64,000 bases of DNA, taken from Thiorhodovibrio winogradskyi (GTDB lineage: Bacteria; Pseudomonadota; Gammaproteobacteria; Chromatiales; Chromatiaceae). Where the stretch lies: contig NZ_CP121472.1 in the NCBI RefSeq assembly GCF_036208045.1, forward strand, positions 3,049,531 through 3,113,530. The letters are read 5' to 3'. Below the pieces are notes generated by a model. That model was not told the origin of the DNA. It saw only the letters and a program-made list of their open reading frames with translations, and ran no database searches. Positions 40,507 through 62,456 of the stretch are shown one piece after another; the stretch's first letter is position 1; every line of letters begins with the position of its first letter. Both the position numbers and the translations under genes were made by a program.

Positions 40507-41168
40507 CGCTGTGCCATGGATGTCTTGCTCAAGGCAGCCGGTCAGGTGACCGCAACGATGCTGATTAAAGCGCTTGTCTACAAAAGCTATCAAATAAGCC
40601 TCACCACAGCGCACATGCCACCTAATCGCATTCACTTTGACGTCGTTTGTTCAGGCAAGCACAGTAAATCGTTCCCAAAAGCGTTCCCTGGAAGTTTCCG
40701 CCGTTGATTTGATGCTCTGGCATGTGCTACTTTCCGAATCGAAAGACAAAAGGTGTTAGTTCTCGGTCACACCGTTACCCATAAGTCCGGCGGCTTCGTT
40801 CGCAGTGCAGCGCAAGTGCTTGATCTAGCGTGGCGGACCAGGGTCTTGCGACATGCAGGCGGGCCTCGCGCCCCTCTGATCGGTCGAGACTCACCGGTTT
40901 ATCGGTAATGGTATGAGTTCTCGGTGGGGCCATAGCGTCCGGCACGAATCCACCAACGGCGCTAGACAGAATCCATACTATTGGAGATAGGCAGAATCTG
41001 TCCAGCACACCCGACCAACATTCTGTCTAGTTAACTGTTGAACTAATCCGCTCCGCGGAGCTTCCGGACCTACCGGCCCCAACCCACACCTGCCACTGAC
41101 AGCGCAATTGCACATTGTCGCCCACACTGAAGATGACCCAATCAGGGTCGTTGACAGAGGGTCTGACG
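40507..41168. other. Intergenic region at the left flank of the IS91-like element
   Basis: No supportable gene in 662 bp. Short frames on both strands lack family motifs. A few local inverted repeats built on AGACAGAAT/ATTCTGTCT occur at about 40967-41030 and may mark a mobile-element end or a regulator site. The left end of the IS91-like element should lie somewhere here but I could not fix it. Confidence 0.45.
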
Positions 41169-41727
41169 ATGACCGCATTACGCCAACGTATGATTGCCGC
41201 CATGCAGATGCATGGCTTCTCCCCGCGCACCCACCAGAGCTACCTCGCCGCGGTGCGCGATCTCGCCAAATTTACCCACCGCGCGCCTGACACCTTGATG
41301 CCGGATGATGTGCAGGGCTACTTCGAGCACTTGGTGCGCGAGCGTGGGCTCGCCCCGGCGAGCGTGCGCCTGTTCTACCATGGCATCCGCTTTTTCTACC
41401 TCCAGGTGCTCAACTGGCCGGCGGTGGACCTGGCCGTCACCCTGCCCAAGCGCCCTCAACGCATACCCGAGTTGCTCACGCGCGTAGAGGTGGCGGCCAT
41501 CCTGGGCGCCTGCGCGGACGTGCGCCATCACATGATGCTCAGCCTCTGCTATGGCTGCGGGCTGCGCCTGAACGAAGTGCTGGCGGTTCGCGTTGGCGAT
41601 ATCGATGGGGAGCGCCGGCTGTTGCGCATTGAACAGGGCAAGGGCGCCAAGGACCGCATGGTCCCGCTCTCGCCGACCTTGTTGGCGCAACTGCGCGCGT
41701 ATTGGCGCGCCTATCGCCCGGGCGCGC
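41169..41727 (+). pseudogene. Tyrosine recombinase, C-terminus deleted
   Basis: About 186 codons match the N-terminal SAM-like domain and first part of the catalytic domain of XerD-like phage integrases: HGFSPRTHQSYLAAVRDLAK, RLFYHGIRFFYLQVLNW, and CYGCGLRLNEVLAVRVGDID with the first catalytic arginine. GKGAKDRMVPLSP follows with the lysine. The HxxR and tyrosine part is lost where the sequence joins the transposase. It lacks the extra motif expected of integron integrases, so it is not IntI. Confidence 0.82.
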
Positions 41728-42639
41728 CAGCGCGCGGCCTTGCTGCCGGTGACCTATCACCATCTGGTCTTCACGCTGCCGTCCGCCCTCAATGGCTGGA
41801 TCGAGGTCCATCCCAAACAGCTCTATGATCTGCTGTTCGAGACGGTCTGGGCCACATTGTCCGCCTTCGGTGCCAACCCCAAGCGATTGAATGGACAACT
41901 GGGGATGACCGCCGTGCTCCATACCTGGGGACAGACGCTCACCCGGCATGTGCATCTGCATTGCCTGGTGCCCGGCGGGGCATTCTCCGCCACCGGCCAG
42001 TGGCATCCCGCGAAAAGCACCTACCTGTTCCCGGTGCGGGCGCTCTCGCGTCACGTGCGTGGCGGCTTCGTCAGTCGTCTGCGCCAGGCCGTCGCGGCCG
42101 GAGAAATGTGCCGGCTAGCCGATCCACGCGAGATCGACCGCATGCTCGATACTCTGATGGGCACCGAGTGGGTGGTCTACTCCAAGCCCTGCCTGGCGCG
42201 CGGCGACACCGTCGTCGACTACCTTGGGCGCTACAGCCATCGCACAGCGCTGAGCGACAGCCGTCTGCTCAGCTTTGATGGCGAGTCCGTTGAACTCAGC
42301 TACAAGGACTACCGCGATGGCGACCAGCGCAAAGTCATGACCCTCTCCGGTGAGGAACTGTTGCGCCGCTTCCTCCTCCATGTGCTACCAAAGGGCTTCA
42401 TGCGCGTGCGCCATTTCGGCTTCCTGGCCAATCGTTGTCGTGCTCAGCGCTTGCCGGCCATCCGCGCGGCGATCGGCGCGGTGCAAGCGCGTCCTGTTGC
42501 AATCATGCCAACTGAACCGGGCACCACCGGGCATCCGCAACCTTCCAAGCCGTTTGATGGTTTTCCCTGCCCGAGCTGTCGCGGCGGTCGATTGCGGGTG
42601 CGAACCGCCTTGGCTCCCAAAGGTCGCGATGGAGGATAG
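41728..42639 (+). pseudogene. IS91-family transposase, N-terminal zinc finger deleted
   Basis: About 303 codons match the HUH (Y2) rolling-circle transposase of IS91. The core is present: HHLVFTLPSALNGW, the HUH motif in RHVHLHCLVPGG, and the paired tyrosines in DYLGRYSHRTALSD (Tyr-x3-Tyr). The cysteine-rich N-terminal segment expected before QRAALLPVTYHH is absent, and no start codon with a ribosome-binding site precedes the frame. A C-terminal CPSCRGGRL motif remains. Confidence 0.85.
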
Positions 42640-42894
42640 CGTGCGCCACTAACCCGCAATCCGCGAAAGATCAGCAGCGCGATCTTCAGGCTCGACACCG
42701 GGCTTGCGTCCGCGCTCGCCTTGCGTTCAGAAATCGACTAAACTCAGTGCAAGTACACGCCATTTTTCGCCCTCGGAGCCCGACAGATGCCGCTTTTCTC
42801 CTCCCGCAGCCTCCCGTTGCGCTGCTTCGGCGCCAGCTCTACCGCCAGCCGCCGGGCTCTGACCAATACAATCCCCTTACCATACGCGCCCCGT

Positions 42895-42911
42895 CTCTCC
42901 GCGCCGGAGAG
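42895..42911. repeat. Hairpin near the right end of the IS91-like element
   Basis: CTCTCCG, a three-base loop and CGGAGAG form a perfect 7-bp stem, 21 bp before the first attC box. IS91-type elements carry hairpins near their termini, so it may be part of an end; it could also act as a terminator, but no T-run follows. Confidence 0.5.
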
Positions 42912-42932
42912 CAGGTGCTAGGATCGGATTAG

Positions 42933-43026
42933 TCCAACAGACATTTATCCATCGGGCGCTCTAGAGTTCAGCGCAAGATCGGACTCACCGCTGAGCGCCC
43001 GATGGATAAATGCTTAATAGTTAGGC
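42933..43026 (+). other. attC site 1
   Basis: The outer boxes are GTCCAAC (42933-42939) and GTTAGGC (43020-43026), which fit the RYYYAAC and GTTRRRY rules. Inside, CATTTATCCATCGGGCGCT (42942-42960) and its exact complement (42994-43012) form a 19-bp stem with a 33-base middle. The gene that would belong to this attC has been replaced by the IS91-like element. It differs in sequence from the other attC sites here. Confidence 0.75.
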
Positions 43027-43045
43027 ATACAAAAAAGGAGATGAA

Positions 43046-43387
43046 ATGAAAAATCAACTTATGGCTATCGCATTGGGCGCGGCTCTTTCTGTCGTCGCAT
43101 TACAAGCAAATGCAGAAACGTATAGCGCACAGCATGAAAACGTAAAAAAGCTTTTTCAAAGCAACGAAGAAAAAACGGCTAAAGATGCGGTTTGGACTTC
43201 CCGAGATATTTTTAAGGTGGGCGTAATCAATGAAGGAAGCCGGAGAGACGGCTACGCCGATTATGTGTGCCAAGTGCTGTATGACTATGGCTTCAAAGGC
43301 AAGAAGGTCTGGGTTCAGGTAATTGATATTGTGAAGCTTACCCGCAACGGGGATTGGGTGAAGCTTGGTGAGTCACATTGCCAATAA
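43046..43387 (+). CDS. Small exported protein, integron cassette gene
   Basis: A 113-residue protein with a clear signal peptide, cleaved after ALQANAETY or near it (about residue 23). The mature part is polar with two cysteines (DYVCQVL and ESHCQ) that may form a disulfide. Ribosome-binding site AAGGAG lies seven bases before the ATG. It is AT-richer than chromosomal neighbours and sits between attC 1 and a GCCTAAC box just after the stop, the layout of an integron cassette. No family recognised. Confidence 0.8.
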   Translation: MKNQLMAIALGAALSVVALQANAETYSAQHENVKKLFQSNEEKTAKDAVWTSRDIFKVGVINEGSRRDGYADYVCQVLYDYGFKGKKVWVQVIDIVKLTRNGDWVKLGESHCQ

Positions 43388-43388
43388 T

Positions 43389-43453
43389 GCCTAACAATTA
43401 AAGGGGCCAGGGTAGGATTTTTTCCCAGACAGGGAATCAACTCTGAATCAATC
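43389..43453 (+). repeat. attC-proximal repeat element, copy 1
   Basis: Begins with a GCCTAAC box at 43389-43395, continues with AATTAAAGGGGCCAGGG and ends with AATC just before the GCCTAAC box of attC 2. The 65 bp align along their whole length with 62330-62392, with many identical positions. The element is thus bracketed by two copies of the attC R'' box. Confidence 0.7.
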
Positions 43454-43517
43454 GCCTAACGATGGCCTCCAGTCCGACCGCTCGCTTCGCTCGCAGCGGC
43501 TGAGGCTAGCGTTAGGA
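43454..43517 (+). other. attC site 2
   Basis: Outer boxes GCCTAAC (43454-43460) and GTTAGGA (43511-43517). The inner arms GGCCTCCAGTCCGACCGCT and AGCGGCTGAGGC pair imperfectly around CGCTTCGCTCGC, as expected for an attC folded as a hairpin. It is close in sequence to attC 7 at 62393, differing at roughly ten of 64 positions. Confidence 0.85.
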
Positions 43518-43523
43518 CCTGAG

Positions 43524-44114
43524 ATGAATAGCGACGAAGATATGGATGAACGGACAACCGCCGACCTTCTTGAGGCGCTCGATAGCGACTATCAGAGATG
43601 CTATCAGCAGATCATTACGCGCCTTGATGAAGGAGAACGGGATGAAAAAGGCAACATCTCCGCAGATTACGAGTTTGAAGCCAGACAATTGATACGGGCA
43701 GCCTTCGCGTATATTGAAGGTGCAGTATTTGTAATCAAAATTGAAGCTTCATTTAACTGCGAAGAAAAGGGAATTGAACTTACTCCCCAGCAGCACCATT
43801 TTATATTCGAGGCTGACTTTGACCTAAATGATAAGGGTGAGGTAGTGCAAAAGCCCGCAAAGATTCCTCTCGCCAAGAACATACGCTTTGCGTTTTCCGT
43901 TTTTGCTCAGGCCAACGGTATCAAGCCAACACTGGACGTCGGGTCAGAGTGGTGGTCGAAACTTCAAGAATCTATCAGAGTCAGAGACCGTCTCACTCAT
44001 CCTAGGTCGCCATCGGACTTGGATGTTTCTCCAAGTGAGGTTATTTCAACAGTTGTAGCTAAGTCCGGTTTTGATGAGGCTTTACATGCGCTTATTTCTG
44101 CAAGCAAGGCCTAA
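43524..44114 (+). CDS. Hypothetical protein, integron cassette gene
   Basis: A 196-residue acidic soluble protein with no signal or membrane segment. The start ATG at 43524 is seven bases after the R' box of attC 2. The stop TAA lies inside the following GCCTAAC box (44109-44115), a common cassette feature. Segments such as RQLIRAAFAYIEGAVFVIKI and RVRDRLTHPRSPSDLDV resemble small helical domains of HEPN-like or RiboL-PSP-HEPN proteins, with RxxxxH-like RDRLTH, but this is only a suggestion. Confidence 0.75.
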   Translation: MNSDEDMDERTTADLLEALDSDYQRCYQQIITRLDEGERDEKGNISADYEFEARQLIRAAFAYIEGAVFVIKIEASFNCEEKGIELTPQQHHFIFEADFDLNDKGEVVQKPAKIPLAKNIRFAFSVFAQANGIKPTLDVGSEWWSKLQESIRVRDRLTHPRSPSDLDVSPSEVISTVVAKSGFDEALHALISASKA

Positions 44115-44170
44115 CGAATAAGAATCAAAGAGAATCAAAGGAATCGAAGGGGCCAGGGTGGAGTCCCGGG
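44109..44170 (+). repeat. attC-proximal repeat element, copy 2 (5' part)
   Basis: After the GCCTAAC box that holds the stop of the preceding gene come degenerate GAATCAAAG units, then AAGGGGCCAGGGTGGAG, the same core as copy 1. It does not continue to an attC; other DNA follows, including a transposase remnant, and the attC body that should follow the box is missing. Confidence 0.6.
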
Positions 44171-44484
44171 GACATATTTGGTCCGCCCCGCGATGCAAGA
44201 GGAAAATCGCCATTAGCAGAAGGAAACGTTGCGGCCATATATCCGGCATCGATGTCGGGACGCATTGCGGTCCCCGTGCCCTAATGGAATTCGCGTACCT
44301 CGCCGTCCTCAATCAGTATATCAGTCTCAGCTTAAGCTGGCTGCTGTCCCCGTCAGGTTTTCAGCGAGGCGGTCGTGCCTTTCATGCCATTACAGTGACT
44401 TTCTCTCTTCGCAACTCGTGGTGTGGAACTCGGTTGATGCCCGATCAGGGCGGATTAATCGGAATGGTTCGTGGCCGATAGGCG
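44171..44484. other. Cassette-array spacer without identifiable gene
   Basis: About 310 bp between a repeat element and an IS110-like fragment. Open frames of 76-107 codons exist on both strands but have no ribosome-binding site and no motif I know. It may be debris of an inserted element. Confidence 0.4.
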
Positions 44485-44598
44485 TTACACAGTAACAGCC
44501 GCAGGCTTTGCCAGCGCGCCGAGCGCTGCATCGAAGGCCTTTCCGGTGGTCATCACCGCCCAGGCGATGCGCACGAGCTTGTTGGCCATCGCACGAAA
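44485..44598 (-). pseudogene. Transposase 3' fragment, probably IS110 family
   Basis: The last 37 codons and stop of a transposase: RAMANKLVRIAWAVMTTG followed by KAFDAALGALAKP. The pattern MANKxxRIAWAV near the C-terminus is typical of IS110 (Transposase_20) proteins. The rest of the gene is absent; a 13-bp direct repeat of CGAAAACCGGGAC (44594-44619) lies at the broken end. Confidence 0.6.
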
Positions 44599-44739
44599 AC
44601 CGGGACCGAAAACCGGGACAGACCACGTTTAATTGCGTGAGATTAAGAATCGCCTAACACGCCCATAAAGCCGAGGCCATACTGCGCATCGCCCTTAGAG
44701 CAGGAGATTAGGGGGCAGACCACGATTTTCAATTCAATC
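44594..44739 (+). repeat. Second repeat family next to GCCTAAC boxes
   Basis: GGGACAGACCACG at 44615-44627 and GGGGCAGACCACG at 44712-44724 each lead after a short AT-rich stretch into AATCGCCTAAC, at 44652-44658 and 44740-44746 respectively. The first of these boxes is an orphan: no complete attC follows it. The same arrangement as the other repeat family, with different core sequence. Confidence 0.6.
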
Positions 44740-44836
44740 GCCTAACGAGCCGGTCAAACCGACCCCGCGCGGCCGGCATCGTGAGCTAATCTCAAACGTG
44801 GTGCCGCGCGCGGGTCGGCTTACCGCGACGTTAGGC
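44740..44836 (+). other. attC site 3
   Basis: Outer boxes GCCTAAC (44740-44746) and GTTAGGC (44830-44836), 97 bp apart in total. Inner arms GCCGGTCAAACCGACCCCGC and GCGCGCGGGTCGGCTT pair imperfectly. It directly precedes a toxin-antitoxin cassette. Confidence 0.8.
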
Positions 44837-44867
44837 CAGATAGGCTACATCAGACGATGATGAATAA

Positions 44868-45092
44868 ATGAACACAAAACAACTGATCAATGAAGCGGTA
44901 TCACTGCCAGTAGAAGAACGAGCCTTGGTGATAGATTCGCTCTTGCGGAGTCTGAACCAGCCAGAATCAGATATAGACAAAATATGGGCTAAAGAAGCAA
45001 AGCGTCGCCTTAATGAACTTAGGTCTGGTCGAGTGAAAGCAATACAAGGGGAGGAAGTCTTTAAAAAGGTGTGGGATAGGTTTGAAAAATGA
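44868..45092 (+). CDS. Addiction-module antitoxin component
   Basis: A 74-residue protein of the TIGR02574 / Unstab_antitox family: NEAVSLPVEERALVIDSLL followed by a charged C-terminus (KAIQGEEVFKKVWDRFEK) that should bind the toxin. The start is 31 bp after attC 3. Its stop overlaps the toxin start in ATGA fashion, giving translational coupling typical of toxin-antitoxin operons. AT-rich codon use differs from the host chromosome. Confidence 0.85.
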   Translation: MNTKQLINEAVSLPVEERALVIDSLLRSLNQPESDIDKIWAKEAKRRLNELRSGRVKAIQGEEVFKKVWDRFEK

Positions 45093-45334
45093 ACTTTTCT
45101 TTTCACCAGGAAGCAGAGAAAGAACTCAATGAGGCAATAGATTATTACGAAGATATTGAGCCAGGACTGGGATATGATTTCGCGTTGGAAGTTCGTTCAG
45201 CAATCGATCGGTTGGTCGATTTCCCAAAGGCATGGGCTGTTCTAGATAGCGATGTCAGAAGATCTTTGGTAAAACAATCTAACGGGTCAGGTTCGGTTTT
45301 TTTAAGACCGAATCTAATCCTTCAATTCGCCTAA
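45089..45334 (+). pseudogene. ParE/RelE-family toxin, C-terminus replaced
   Basis: The first 62 or so codons match ParE-type toxins: FSFHQEAEKELNEAIDYYED, GLGYDFALEVRSAIDRL and WAVLDSDVRRSLV. From about residue 64 the frame runs into a repeat element (NGSGSVFLRPNLILQFA) and stops in the next attC box. The C-terminal strands with the family residues are missing, so toxicity is probably lost while the antitoxin remains intact. Confidence 0.8.
45277..45328 (+). repeat. attC-proximal repeat element, copy 3
   Basis: Starts with the box-like ATCTAAC (45277-45283), then GGGTCAGGTTCGG, an internal hairpin of TTCGGT and ACCGAA, and ends with CAATTC before GCCTAAC of attC 4. It lies inside the damaged toxin gene and supplies its false C-terminus. 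Confidence 0.65.
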
Positions 45335-45400
45335 CACGGTGCTCCAGTCGACGCCGGTTTGGCTCTCGCTCAACCGGCTCGACTGAGCATGTCGTTAGGC
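45329..45400 (+). other. attC site 4
   Basis: Outer boxes GCCTAAC (45329-45335) and GTTAGGC (45394-45400), 72 bp. Inner arms GCTCCAGTCGACGCCGGTT and AACCGGCTCGACTGAGC pair with a bulge around TGGCTCTCGCTC. The toxin frame ends inside the first box. Confidence 0.87.
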
Positions 45401-45427
45401 AGAAGAATTACTAATTAAAAAAAGTAA

Positions 45428-45667
45428 ATGAACATCAAATTCTCTCGACATGCGACGAGAAGAGCAAAGCTCTACAAAATTCCTGAAAATGTTATTCGTG
45501 AAATTCTGTCGGATATTGCTTTATCTGACGGTGAACATGAAATTATCAAAAATGTCACTGGGTTCAGATATCCAATAAAAACAGTTGTGACTGTCGAAGG
45601 CGTCAAGATCACTGTGATTACAAATTATCCGCTGAAGAAAGGCAAAACAGATGAACGTTCACTATGA
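45428..45667 (+). CDS. DUF4258 domain protein, cassette gene
   Basis: A 79-residue protein beginning FSRHATRRAKLYKIPENVI, the N-terminal pattern of DUF4258 proteins with conserved His and Arg. GFRYPIKTVVTVEGVKITVIT forms the beta-strand part. It overlaps the following DUF2283 gene by 17 bases. Pairs of this kind often behave like toxin-antitoxin modules in gene neighbourhoods; DUF4258 has a RelE-like size, but no activity is proven here. Confidence 0.8.
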   Translation: MNIKFSRHATRRAKLYKIPENVIREILSDIALSDGEHEIIKNVTGFRYPIKTVVTVEGVKITVITNYPLKKGKTDERSL

Positions 45668-45878
45668 TGAATTAGTTGATGCGCTATATTTAAAGCTTGG
45701 TGATGATGAGCCAGATGGAGTTATTGAAATTGCAGAAGGAGTAAATATTGATACAACTGCTGGGGGTAAACTTGCAGGTATCGAAATATTAGAAGCATCG
45801 AAAAAAATCAACATGAACACTATCTTGTCTTACACGCTTGAATTAGATCACGATTTATTAGCAAAGAAAATCGCCTAA
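45651..45878 (+). CDS. DUF2283 domain protein, cassette gene
   Basis: A 75-residue protein of the DUF2283 family: HYDELVDALYLKLGDDEP, then GVNIDTTAGGKLAGIEILEASKK. Its ATG lies inside the end of the DUF4258 gene, so the two are translated together. The stop TAA falls in the GCCTAAC box of attC 5. It would be the antitoxin-like partner if the pair is an addiction module. Confidence 0.85.
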   Translation: MNVHYDELVDALYLKLGDDEPDGVIEIAEGVNIDTTAGGKLAGIEILEASKKINMNTILSYTLELDHDLLAKKIA

Positions 45879-45938
45879 CGAGTTGCTCCAGCCGAAGCCG
45901 GTTTCGCTCAACCGGCTCGGCTGAGCTTGGCGTTAGAG
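45873..45938 (+). other. attC site 5
   Basis: Outer boxes GCCTAAC (45873-45879) and GTTAGAG (45932-45938; last base deviates from the rule). Inner arms GCTCCAGCCGAAGCCGGTTT and CAACCGGCTCGGCTGAGC pair well around CGCT. It is very like attC 4. Confidence 0.85.
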
Positions 45939-45958
45939 CTGGTAAAGAGTCGAAATAT

Positions 45959-46134
45959 ATATCTGAAATTACACGTTTTTACGGAATCATCATTAAGCTT
46001 TATTTTTTGGCGATCATCCGCCACCACACTTTCACGCCGTTTATGGAGAGCACAACGCTATCTTCAACATAGAAACTTTGGAGATGATTGAGGGCAACCT
46101 TCCCTCAAGAGCACGAAAGCTCGTAATGGAGTGA
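45959..46134 (+). pseudogene. DUF4160 gene remnant, no start and one frameshift
   Basis: Translation in two frames gives EITRFYGIIIKLYF and then GDHPPPHFHAVYGEH with FNIETLEMIEGNLPSRARKL, a nearly complete DUF4160 protein. A run of six T at 46003-46008, two more than expected, separates the frames. The start codon appears mutated (ATA where ATG would be expected at 45959) and the tryptophan after the last glutamate is replaced by a stop. The DUF2442 partner that often follows is absent. Confidence 0.7.
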
Positions 46135-46138
46135 GTAT

Positions 46139-46198
46139 GCTTAACTGTCCAGCCCGACCCTTCGCTTAGCTCGCGGCGGCTAAGGCTGGCGTAAGCAG
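46139..46198 (+). other. attC site 6, degenerate
   Basis: GCTTAAC (46139-46145) fits the first box. The far box is GTAAGCA, missing one T. Between them CCAGCCCGACCCTTCGCTTAGC and CGGCGGCTAAGGCTGG show the usual arms. It is probably an inactive or decaying site. Confidence 0.6.
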
Positions 46199-62159: not shown

Positions 62160-62300
62160 TTAGAGCAATCCGTCCAGCGGACTGCGCACCCCCTGCCCGC
62201 CGCGATTGAGCACATGGGTGTAGATCATGGTGGTTGACACATCCGCGTGCCCCAATAGTTCCTGTACCGTGCGAATGTCATAGCCGGACTCCAGCAAATA
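62160..62300 (-). pseudogene. intI: Integron integrase (intI) remnant, 3' end only
   Basis: On the minus strand 45 codons and a stop read [20 protein letters not shown] followed by [20 protein letters not shown] and LDGLL. This is the C-terminal end of a tyrosine recombinase with the catalytic Tyr in MIYTHV. The tail HVLNRGGxGVxSPLD is characteristic of integron integrases. The frame meets a stop and repeat DNA at 62301, so the N-terminal five-sixths and attI are gone. The stop lies four bases after the menH stop region. Its direction, away from the adjacent attC, is that of an integron. Confidence 0.85.
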
Positions 62301-62392
62301 AAATTAAAGGAATAAAATTAAAGTGAATTAAAGGAATTAAAGGGGTCTGGATGGAATTGTTTTCCAGCCTGTAAATCAACTCGCATTCAATT
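62301..62392 (+). repeat. attC-proximal repeat element, copy 4
   Basis: Starts with four degenerate AATTAAAGG units, then GGGGTCTGGATGGAATTG, and ends with CATTCAATT before GCCTAAC of attC 7. From 62330 on it aligns with copy 1 at 43396-43453. It replaces the 5' part of intI. Confidence 0.7.
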
Positions 62393-62456
62393 GCCTAACG
62401 CTGGCCTTCAGTCCGACCGCTCGCTTCGCTCGCGGTGGCTGAGGCTGGAGTTAGAT
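62393..62456 (+). other. attC site 7, next to the intI remnant
   Basis: Outer boxes GCCTAAC (62393-62399) and GTTAGAT (62450-62456). The inner arms GGCCTTCAGTCCGACCGCTC and GCGGTGGCTGAGGC enclose GCTTCGCTC. It is the near twin of attC 2 in the array 19 kb to the left. Confidence 0.85.

Follow-up and report, generated by a model that had tools for sequence, protein, structure and literature searches.

Among the described systems, the closest to the one reported here are the TIRYT transposases, the terminal repeats of which carry the motif GGGGWSAS (Di Nocera 2013, PMC3733652) and most of which have been assigned to TnpA_REP subclass 2.1, equivalent to RAYT group 1 (Quentin 2018, PMC6006769); the main text of neither paper mentions integrons. 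Here we analyze a short element in a 64,000-nucleotide (nt) stretch of the genome of Thiorhodovibrio winogradskyi (NZ_CP121472.1, positions 3,049,531 to 3,113,530; hereafter, the window), in which an end repeat of the TIRYT type is fused to an integron attC site. The repeat and the attC make up one module, and it is by the outer end of the repeat that this module is connected to new DNA. As in TIRYT/TIRtron, we observed a Y1 HUH transposase with the NHVH and YIELNP motifs, an upstream repeat resembling GGGGWSAS, and dispersed single and dimeric copies of this repeat; unlike in TIRYT/TIRtron, each genome has several transposase copies, the main core is often GGGGCCAGG, and a subset of the repeats is fused to attC.

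The REP and REPIN sequences linked to RAYT groups 2-3 are likewise short non-coding repeats connected to a Y1 transposase, but the present element lacks the GTAG tag and the standard REP hairpin, and its transposase is multi-copy. The element begins with GAATTAAAGGGG or GGAAAAGGGG and forms a weak hairpin or none, in contrast to the combination of GTAG/GTGG with a stable hairpin in classical REP. Homogeneous attC arrays of chromosomal integrons (VCR-like) also place a uniform attC family behind unrelated genes genome-wide; here, however, the uniform unit begins 47-60 nt before the R'' box, at a transposase end. Group IIC introns have been reported with integrons (PMC7923331), and IS1111-attC elements and group IIC-attC introns put the whole element into attC, whereas in the case at hand R'' has a short non-coding end repeat on its outer side and the attC is left complete. 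Thus, the components are each known, but in the open-access text searched, we found neither the fusion of a repeat with attC, nor its role at breakpoints, nor any report of attC associated with RAYT, REP or TIRYT.

The first-pass annotation of the window had listed four copies of the element sharing a GGGGYCWGG core and a TCAATY end that abuts GCCTAAC. This description fits copies 1 (43396-43453) and 4 (core 62335-62392), which represent one 58-65 nt element whose last base adjoins the R'' box GCCTAAC of an attC (cores at 43400-43413 and 62339-62352; TCAATY next to GCCTAAC at 43448-43460 and 62387-62399), but not copy 3, with its diverged core TCTAACGGGTCAGGTTCGG, or copy 2 (repeat at about 44120-44163), which consists of the left half only, behind an R'' box and with no R'' immediately 3' of it. 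Three copies were also thought to be bracketed by R''-like boxes. A true R'' box on the left is present only in copies 1 and 2, so that bracketing is not a general rule; the supposed box of copy 3, ATCTAAC, is a variant form of the ATCAAAC/AATCAAAG with which the element itself starts, and this copy is accordingly not bracketed.

The left half of the element, GAATTAAAGGGGYCWGG, is a repeat dispersed over the whole genome: the core has 52 matches, compared to 3 for the reversed control, with dispersed copies outside the transposase gene as in TIRYT. The core followed by GCCTAAC was found 7 times genome-wide and not once in the reversed control. Of the 13 exact genomic occurrences of TCAATYGCCTAAC, 12 close such an element, and with up to 2 mismatches allowed, the window contains 7 copies of this sequence where 1.8 would be expected, a count that no shuffle attained. 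Among the 64 cores in loci retrieved by the core alone, GCCTAAC lies within 75 nt downstream of 13 compared to 0.4 expected, about 30-fold above chance, and the reverse sense, GTTAGGC, of none (0/64), which indicates that the junction between the element and R'' is real and strand-specific. The GCCTAAC behind the element belongs, as the R'' box, to a complete attC with both R'' and R' boxes and the IntI crossover between G and TT, just past which the sequence diverges. In 12 of the 16 related attCs in the genome, the element or its right part lies immediately upstream.

The left end of the element also stands ahead of Y1 transposase genes in this genome, as the proposed Y1/RAYT connection had anticipated. 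In two Y1 genes, at 213774 and at 4412430, the latter with a 255-aa open frame, AATTAAAGGGGYCAGG begins 77-80 nt ahead of the transposase domain, and the same left end also precedes the Y1 gene at 4402323. Relatives of the first of these genes with the same or a similar left end were identified in Allochromatium warmingii (L209/L235), and a diverged form in Lamprobacter (L220). Two other Y1 subfamilies of the T. winogradskyi genome have motifs of their own at the equivalent place (GGGGACAGTATACTTAATTC; CGGGACAGACCACG). In the genus g59, inverted GGGAAAAGGGGTCAGAGCC / GGGGTCAGAGCC repeats stand on either side of a Y1 gene of genome G059 (L228), and the attC modules of this genus begin with GGAAAAGGGG, as do the repeats flanking the g59 Y1 gene. 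Thus, in both lineages, the left edge of the module matches the end of the local transposase. The proteins of three subfamilies contain the NHVH/NHLH and YIELNP/YVELNP motifs of the TnpA_REP-class HUH/Y1 enzymes, with matches to PF01797. The variants GGGGTCAG and GGGGACAG fit the TIRYT motif GGGGWSAS; GGGGCCAGG and CGGGACAG, both frequent, are not strict matches to it. An inverted repeat at both gene ends was found in 2 of 4 third-subfamily genes and in G059 L228; a second repeat family, GGGACAGACCACG, is associated with 4 Y1 genes in the genome, with an inverted copy downstream in 2 of the 4. By sequence, the left half of the element matches a TIRYT-class terminal repeat; since no inverted copy was found on the right of the type-1 transposase genes of this genome, the assignment of the type-1 gene itself to TIRYT is supported but incomplete. 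A further repeat family (TAGGTTGGG...CCCAAC) is present upstream of another Y1 gene in the genus g59 (L227 upstream), and in L140 this repeat comes directly after a cassette gene, in the position of the left end.

The structure of the module could be analyzed best in the genus g59, where 68 of 74 type-I attCs carry a 47-nt element. The mean pairwise identity is 0.26-0.30, that is, at background, in the upstream DNA, 0.64-0.89 in the element and 0.85-0.98 in the attC, and climbs within two or three bases at GGAAAAGGGG, a sharp left boundary; the DNA upstream of the 68 modules is unrelated and falls into 50 clusters. The distances between elements are correlated with those between the adjacent attCs (r 0.29, 0/500 permutations), also when only modules with distinct upstream DNA are considered (r 0.33, 8/500 permutations), and the right flanks diverge just past the IntI crossover. 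The sharp left boundary, the co-varying distances and the crossover on the right together indicate that the inherited unit is the element plus attC, with the outer edge of the element as the joint. An R''-like box is present within 60 nt upstream of 8 of the 65 g59 modules compared to 1 of 65 in the next 60 nt; because intact versions of such half-attCs were not found among the loci compared, this label rests on the R'' box and its context. A candidate base pairing between the g59 element (GGGTCG) and attC (CGACCC) was rejected given that the changes, judged by eye, are not compensatory.

Comparison of paralogs was used to assess the breakpoints at the left boundary. In one case, the edge severs a radC-like gene in its middle while about 11 paralogs are uncut. 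Another gene ends in the module in L196 and continues for three more codons in L190, where it is followed by another attC. The genes in L164 and L150 are common up to the edge, beyond which lies the module in one and an attC holding a repeat dimer in the other, and the sequences of L178 and L140 share 97.7% identity as far as the edge, with different repeats beyond. Copies 3 and 4 in the window agree with this pattern, in that a ParE-like open reading frame (ORF) and intI stop at the element. Copy 3 was held to destroy a toxin gene; the ORF is indeed truncated, although its ParE-like Pfam match is weak (model positions 2-48 of 89, E 0.005, under the cut-off). Copy 4, said to replace part of intI, more exactly adjoins an IntI remnant (residues 271-315) that ends precisely at position 62300. 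In L150 (genome G114), the repeat dimer (GGGGTCAGGTCTTGA...TCAAGACCTGACCCC) lies within a type-I attC and substitutes part of its 5' half. Stacked partial left-end units (AATTAAAGGCAT three times, and GAATTAAAGG repeats) were observed in A. warmingii L102, at 62301-62334 of the window, and in G000 at 5326692-5326760, and look like the result of additional ends joining at, or just within, earlier ends.

The comparison set for the distribution of the junctions consisted of 194 genomes of the purple sulfur bacterial family Chromatiaceae and, for the second repeat family, a class sample of about 270 others. The AAAGGGGYCWGG-GCCTAAC junction was detected in 12 of the 194 family genomes, in six genera and at about 50 places, with a single match for the reversed control, and nearly all inspected copies continue into an attC, of several types. 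The second repeat family, GGGACAGACCACG, adjoins R'' in 10 of the 194 genomes, again with several attC types (control 0), and no such junction was found in the class sample outside the family; two second-family junctions in the window (44615-44658 and about 44711-44746) had been overlooked in the first-pass annotation. Altogether, several genera have attCs, of about eight types, joined to members of at least two repeat families. Database-wide, the exact pattern has only A. warmingii and Lamprobacter modestohalophilus as named members, with one stray match lacking an attC.

The observations to be explained are the identity of the left end with that of the transposase, the orientation-specific junction, the co-inheritance of element and attC, the sharp left edge and the breaks of genes at this edge. 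The best explanation of the whole, to which we would give an even chance of being correct, is that the terminal repeat of multi-copy Y1 (HUH) TIRYT transposases became fused to the 5' side of attC and that its outer end serves as the joining point. The repeat plus attC (about 110-150 bp) is passed on as a single module, with the right edge at the ordinary IntI crossover point and the left edge joined to genes, whole or truncated, to intI, to half-attCs and to other repeats. IS200/IS605-type enzymes cleave single strands at the left end. Most likely, the resident transposase would similarly cut and rejoin single strands at the outer end of the module, at the edge GAATTAAAGG/GGAAAAGG; such joining would put an attC behind a new gene, so that a cassette would be made or remade, and IntI would move this cassette afterwards. 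We infer that the transposase itself does the joining, and still does so; the grounds for the former are the class of the enzyme and an edge identity seen in two lineages. The farther-reaching proposal that the Y1 transposase and its end repeat are a cassette-making machine, in which strand transfer at the outer end of the repeat attaches a ready-made attC behind arbitrary genes and so turns them into integron cassettes, we regard as unlikely.

The main rival is passive carriage, whereby a few ancient events brought the repeat next to attC, after which IntI and some process that attaches attC to genes multiplied the extended site, with no further part for the transposase. Although we consider this scenario somewhat improbable, it accommodates the co-inheritance of element and attC, the right edges at IntI crossovers and the fact that the element type mostly tracks the attC type; what it leaves unexplained are the multiple combinations of repeat families and attC types across genera and the precise breaks of genes, intI and attCs at a transposase end. 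Quite unlikely, in our assessment, are independent insertions, with Y1 repeats repeatedly targeting the R'' boxes and loops of attCs, which fold as single strands. The half-attCs directly upstream of modules, the dimer within the attC of L150, the location of copies 1 and 2 immediately after an R'' box and the link of two repeat families to attC all fit such targeting, but the sequences of element and attC co-vary, each type keeps a constant distance to R'', the majority of modules lack an R'' on the left, and no clean site with a module between the 5' and 3' halves of an attC was found. Of the earlier idea of a mobile element aimed at R'' boxes, the tie between a mobile-family repeat and R'' stands, but simple repeated insertion is not supported, the element and attC being inherited as a unit.

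The same annotation also considered relics of nested cassettes, in which the stretch between two R'' boxes would be a small cassette minus its gene. Tandem element-GCCTAAC-element-GCCTAAC units (5326762-5326890) and gene-less modules immediately after another attC (5326954, L190) are compatible with this origin, which nevertheless appears very improbable because it fails to account for the same left end preceding transposase genes and sitting at many attC-free sites, and because most copies are unbracketed. Hardly more credible is a regulatory part, namely, a hairpin repeat retained near attC for transcription termination or attC folding: the position is constant and a hairpin is possible in some copies (e.g. 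GCCTGG-N13-CCAGGC), but the predicted structures are weak and vary by type, no T-run follows, and the repeat is equally common away from attC. A promoter or terminator was likewise rejected, in view of the lack of a conserved -10 and a T-run.

Several points weigh against the best explanation given above. The condition that the first-pass annotation had named as refuting its own reading literally holds, in that most copies are not next to attC, with no R'' box within 75 nt downstream in 51 of 64 cores, yet the junction is far above chance, strand-specific and recurs in other genera; in G059, the left end is without attC in about 9 of 30 cases. In the type-1 transposase genes of the genome, an inverted right end was not found within 900 nt downstream, so that the mobility of this transposase is not proven. 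Most of the compared copies come from two g59 genomes, and the independent events are therefore fewer than the copies. Because the right flanks conform to the IntI crossover, complete cassettes could have spread through IntI alone, and the breaks at the edge could come from other illegitimate recombination at hairpins. An empty site with both flanks continuous was not found in the paralog comparison, which showed breaks at the left edge only, with no dedicated joined-flank search made, and module insertion is not demonstrated directly.

The outer edge of the unit added to genes is a marked one, belonging to a transposase family found in the same genomes. These findings supply a concrete candidate enzyme and a breakpoint for cassette formation and hint at the origin of cassettes; in addition, a poorly studied class of terminal repeats gains a definite genomic partner, attC.

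Table 1. Element copies, attC sites and related features of the window
Feature	Position	Strand	Description
R'' box GCCTAAC ahead of copy 1	43389..43395	+	immediately after the stop of ORF 43046-43387; direct reading
Copy 1	43396..43453	+	left-end repeat AATTAAAGGGGCCAGG and spacer with end AATCAATC; direct reading; pattern AAAGGGGYCWGG..GCCTAAC
attC type A (GATGGCCTCCAGTCCGACC...) fused to copy 1	43454..43516	+	97% identity over 63 nt to attC query with 16 copies in genome
Copy 2	44109..44163	+	R'' box GCCTAAC 44109-44115, then left-end-only repeat (AATCAAAG.. AATCAAAG.. AATCGAAGGGGCCAGGG); direct reading
Second repeat family (GGGACAGACCACG) adjoining R'' box and truncated attC (ACGCCCATAAAGCCG...)	44615..44658	+	
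Diverged second-family repeat (GGGGGCAGACCACGATTTTCAATTCAATC) adjoining full attC	44711..44836	+	R'' 44740-44746, R' about 44830-44836; direct reading; locus L047
Copy 3	45277..45328	+	diverged left-end repeat; terminates truncated ParE-like ORF 45089-45334
attC type B (ACGGTGCTCCAG...) fused to copy 3	45329..45400	+	
Nearby attC without any element (internal comparison)	45873..45938	+	direct reading
IntI C-terminal remnant	62166..62300	-	TIGR02249 residues 271-315; cut precisely at left edge of copy 4
Copy 4	62301..62392	+	several partial left ends in a stack (AAATTAAAGG.. units) followed by the full element with end CATTCAATT
attC type A fused to copy 4	62393..62454	+	94% identity to attC query

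The genome encodes two full-length IntI proteins (5320942-5321883 and 1987596-1988537), in addition to remnants. The array in the window (40957-46195) has no adjacent intI, and the IntI C-terminal remnant lies some 16-21 kb away, as if the two were parts of one split integron. The segment 40957-43026 shares 89-96% identity with the opening part of the cassette array located at 5322438-5325036 of the genome; its first 80 bases match intI-adjacent DNA in several other integron loci and likely represent the attI region. An ORF for a Y2 (IS91-like) transposase (41593-42636) is located between this putative attI region and the first cassette. Finally, the G059 loci L154, L177, L178, L181, L184 and L194 share a common leader, GGCGCGTCCCTGCGCCGCTTATTGGGGAGCTAACC..., to the right of attC, with the crossover box CGATAAGC; this leader follows about nine type-I attCs and could be either a repeated cassette start or another element.
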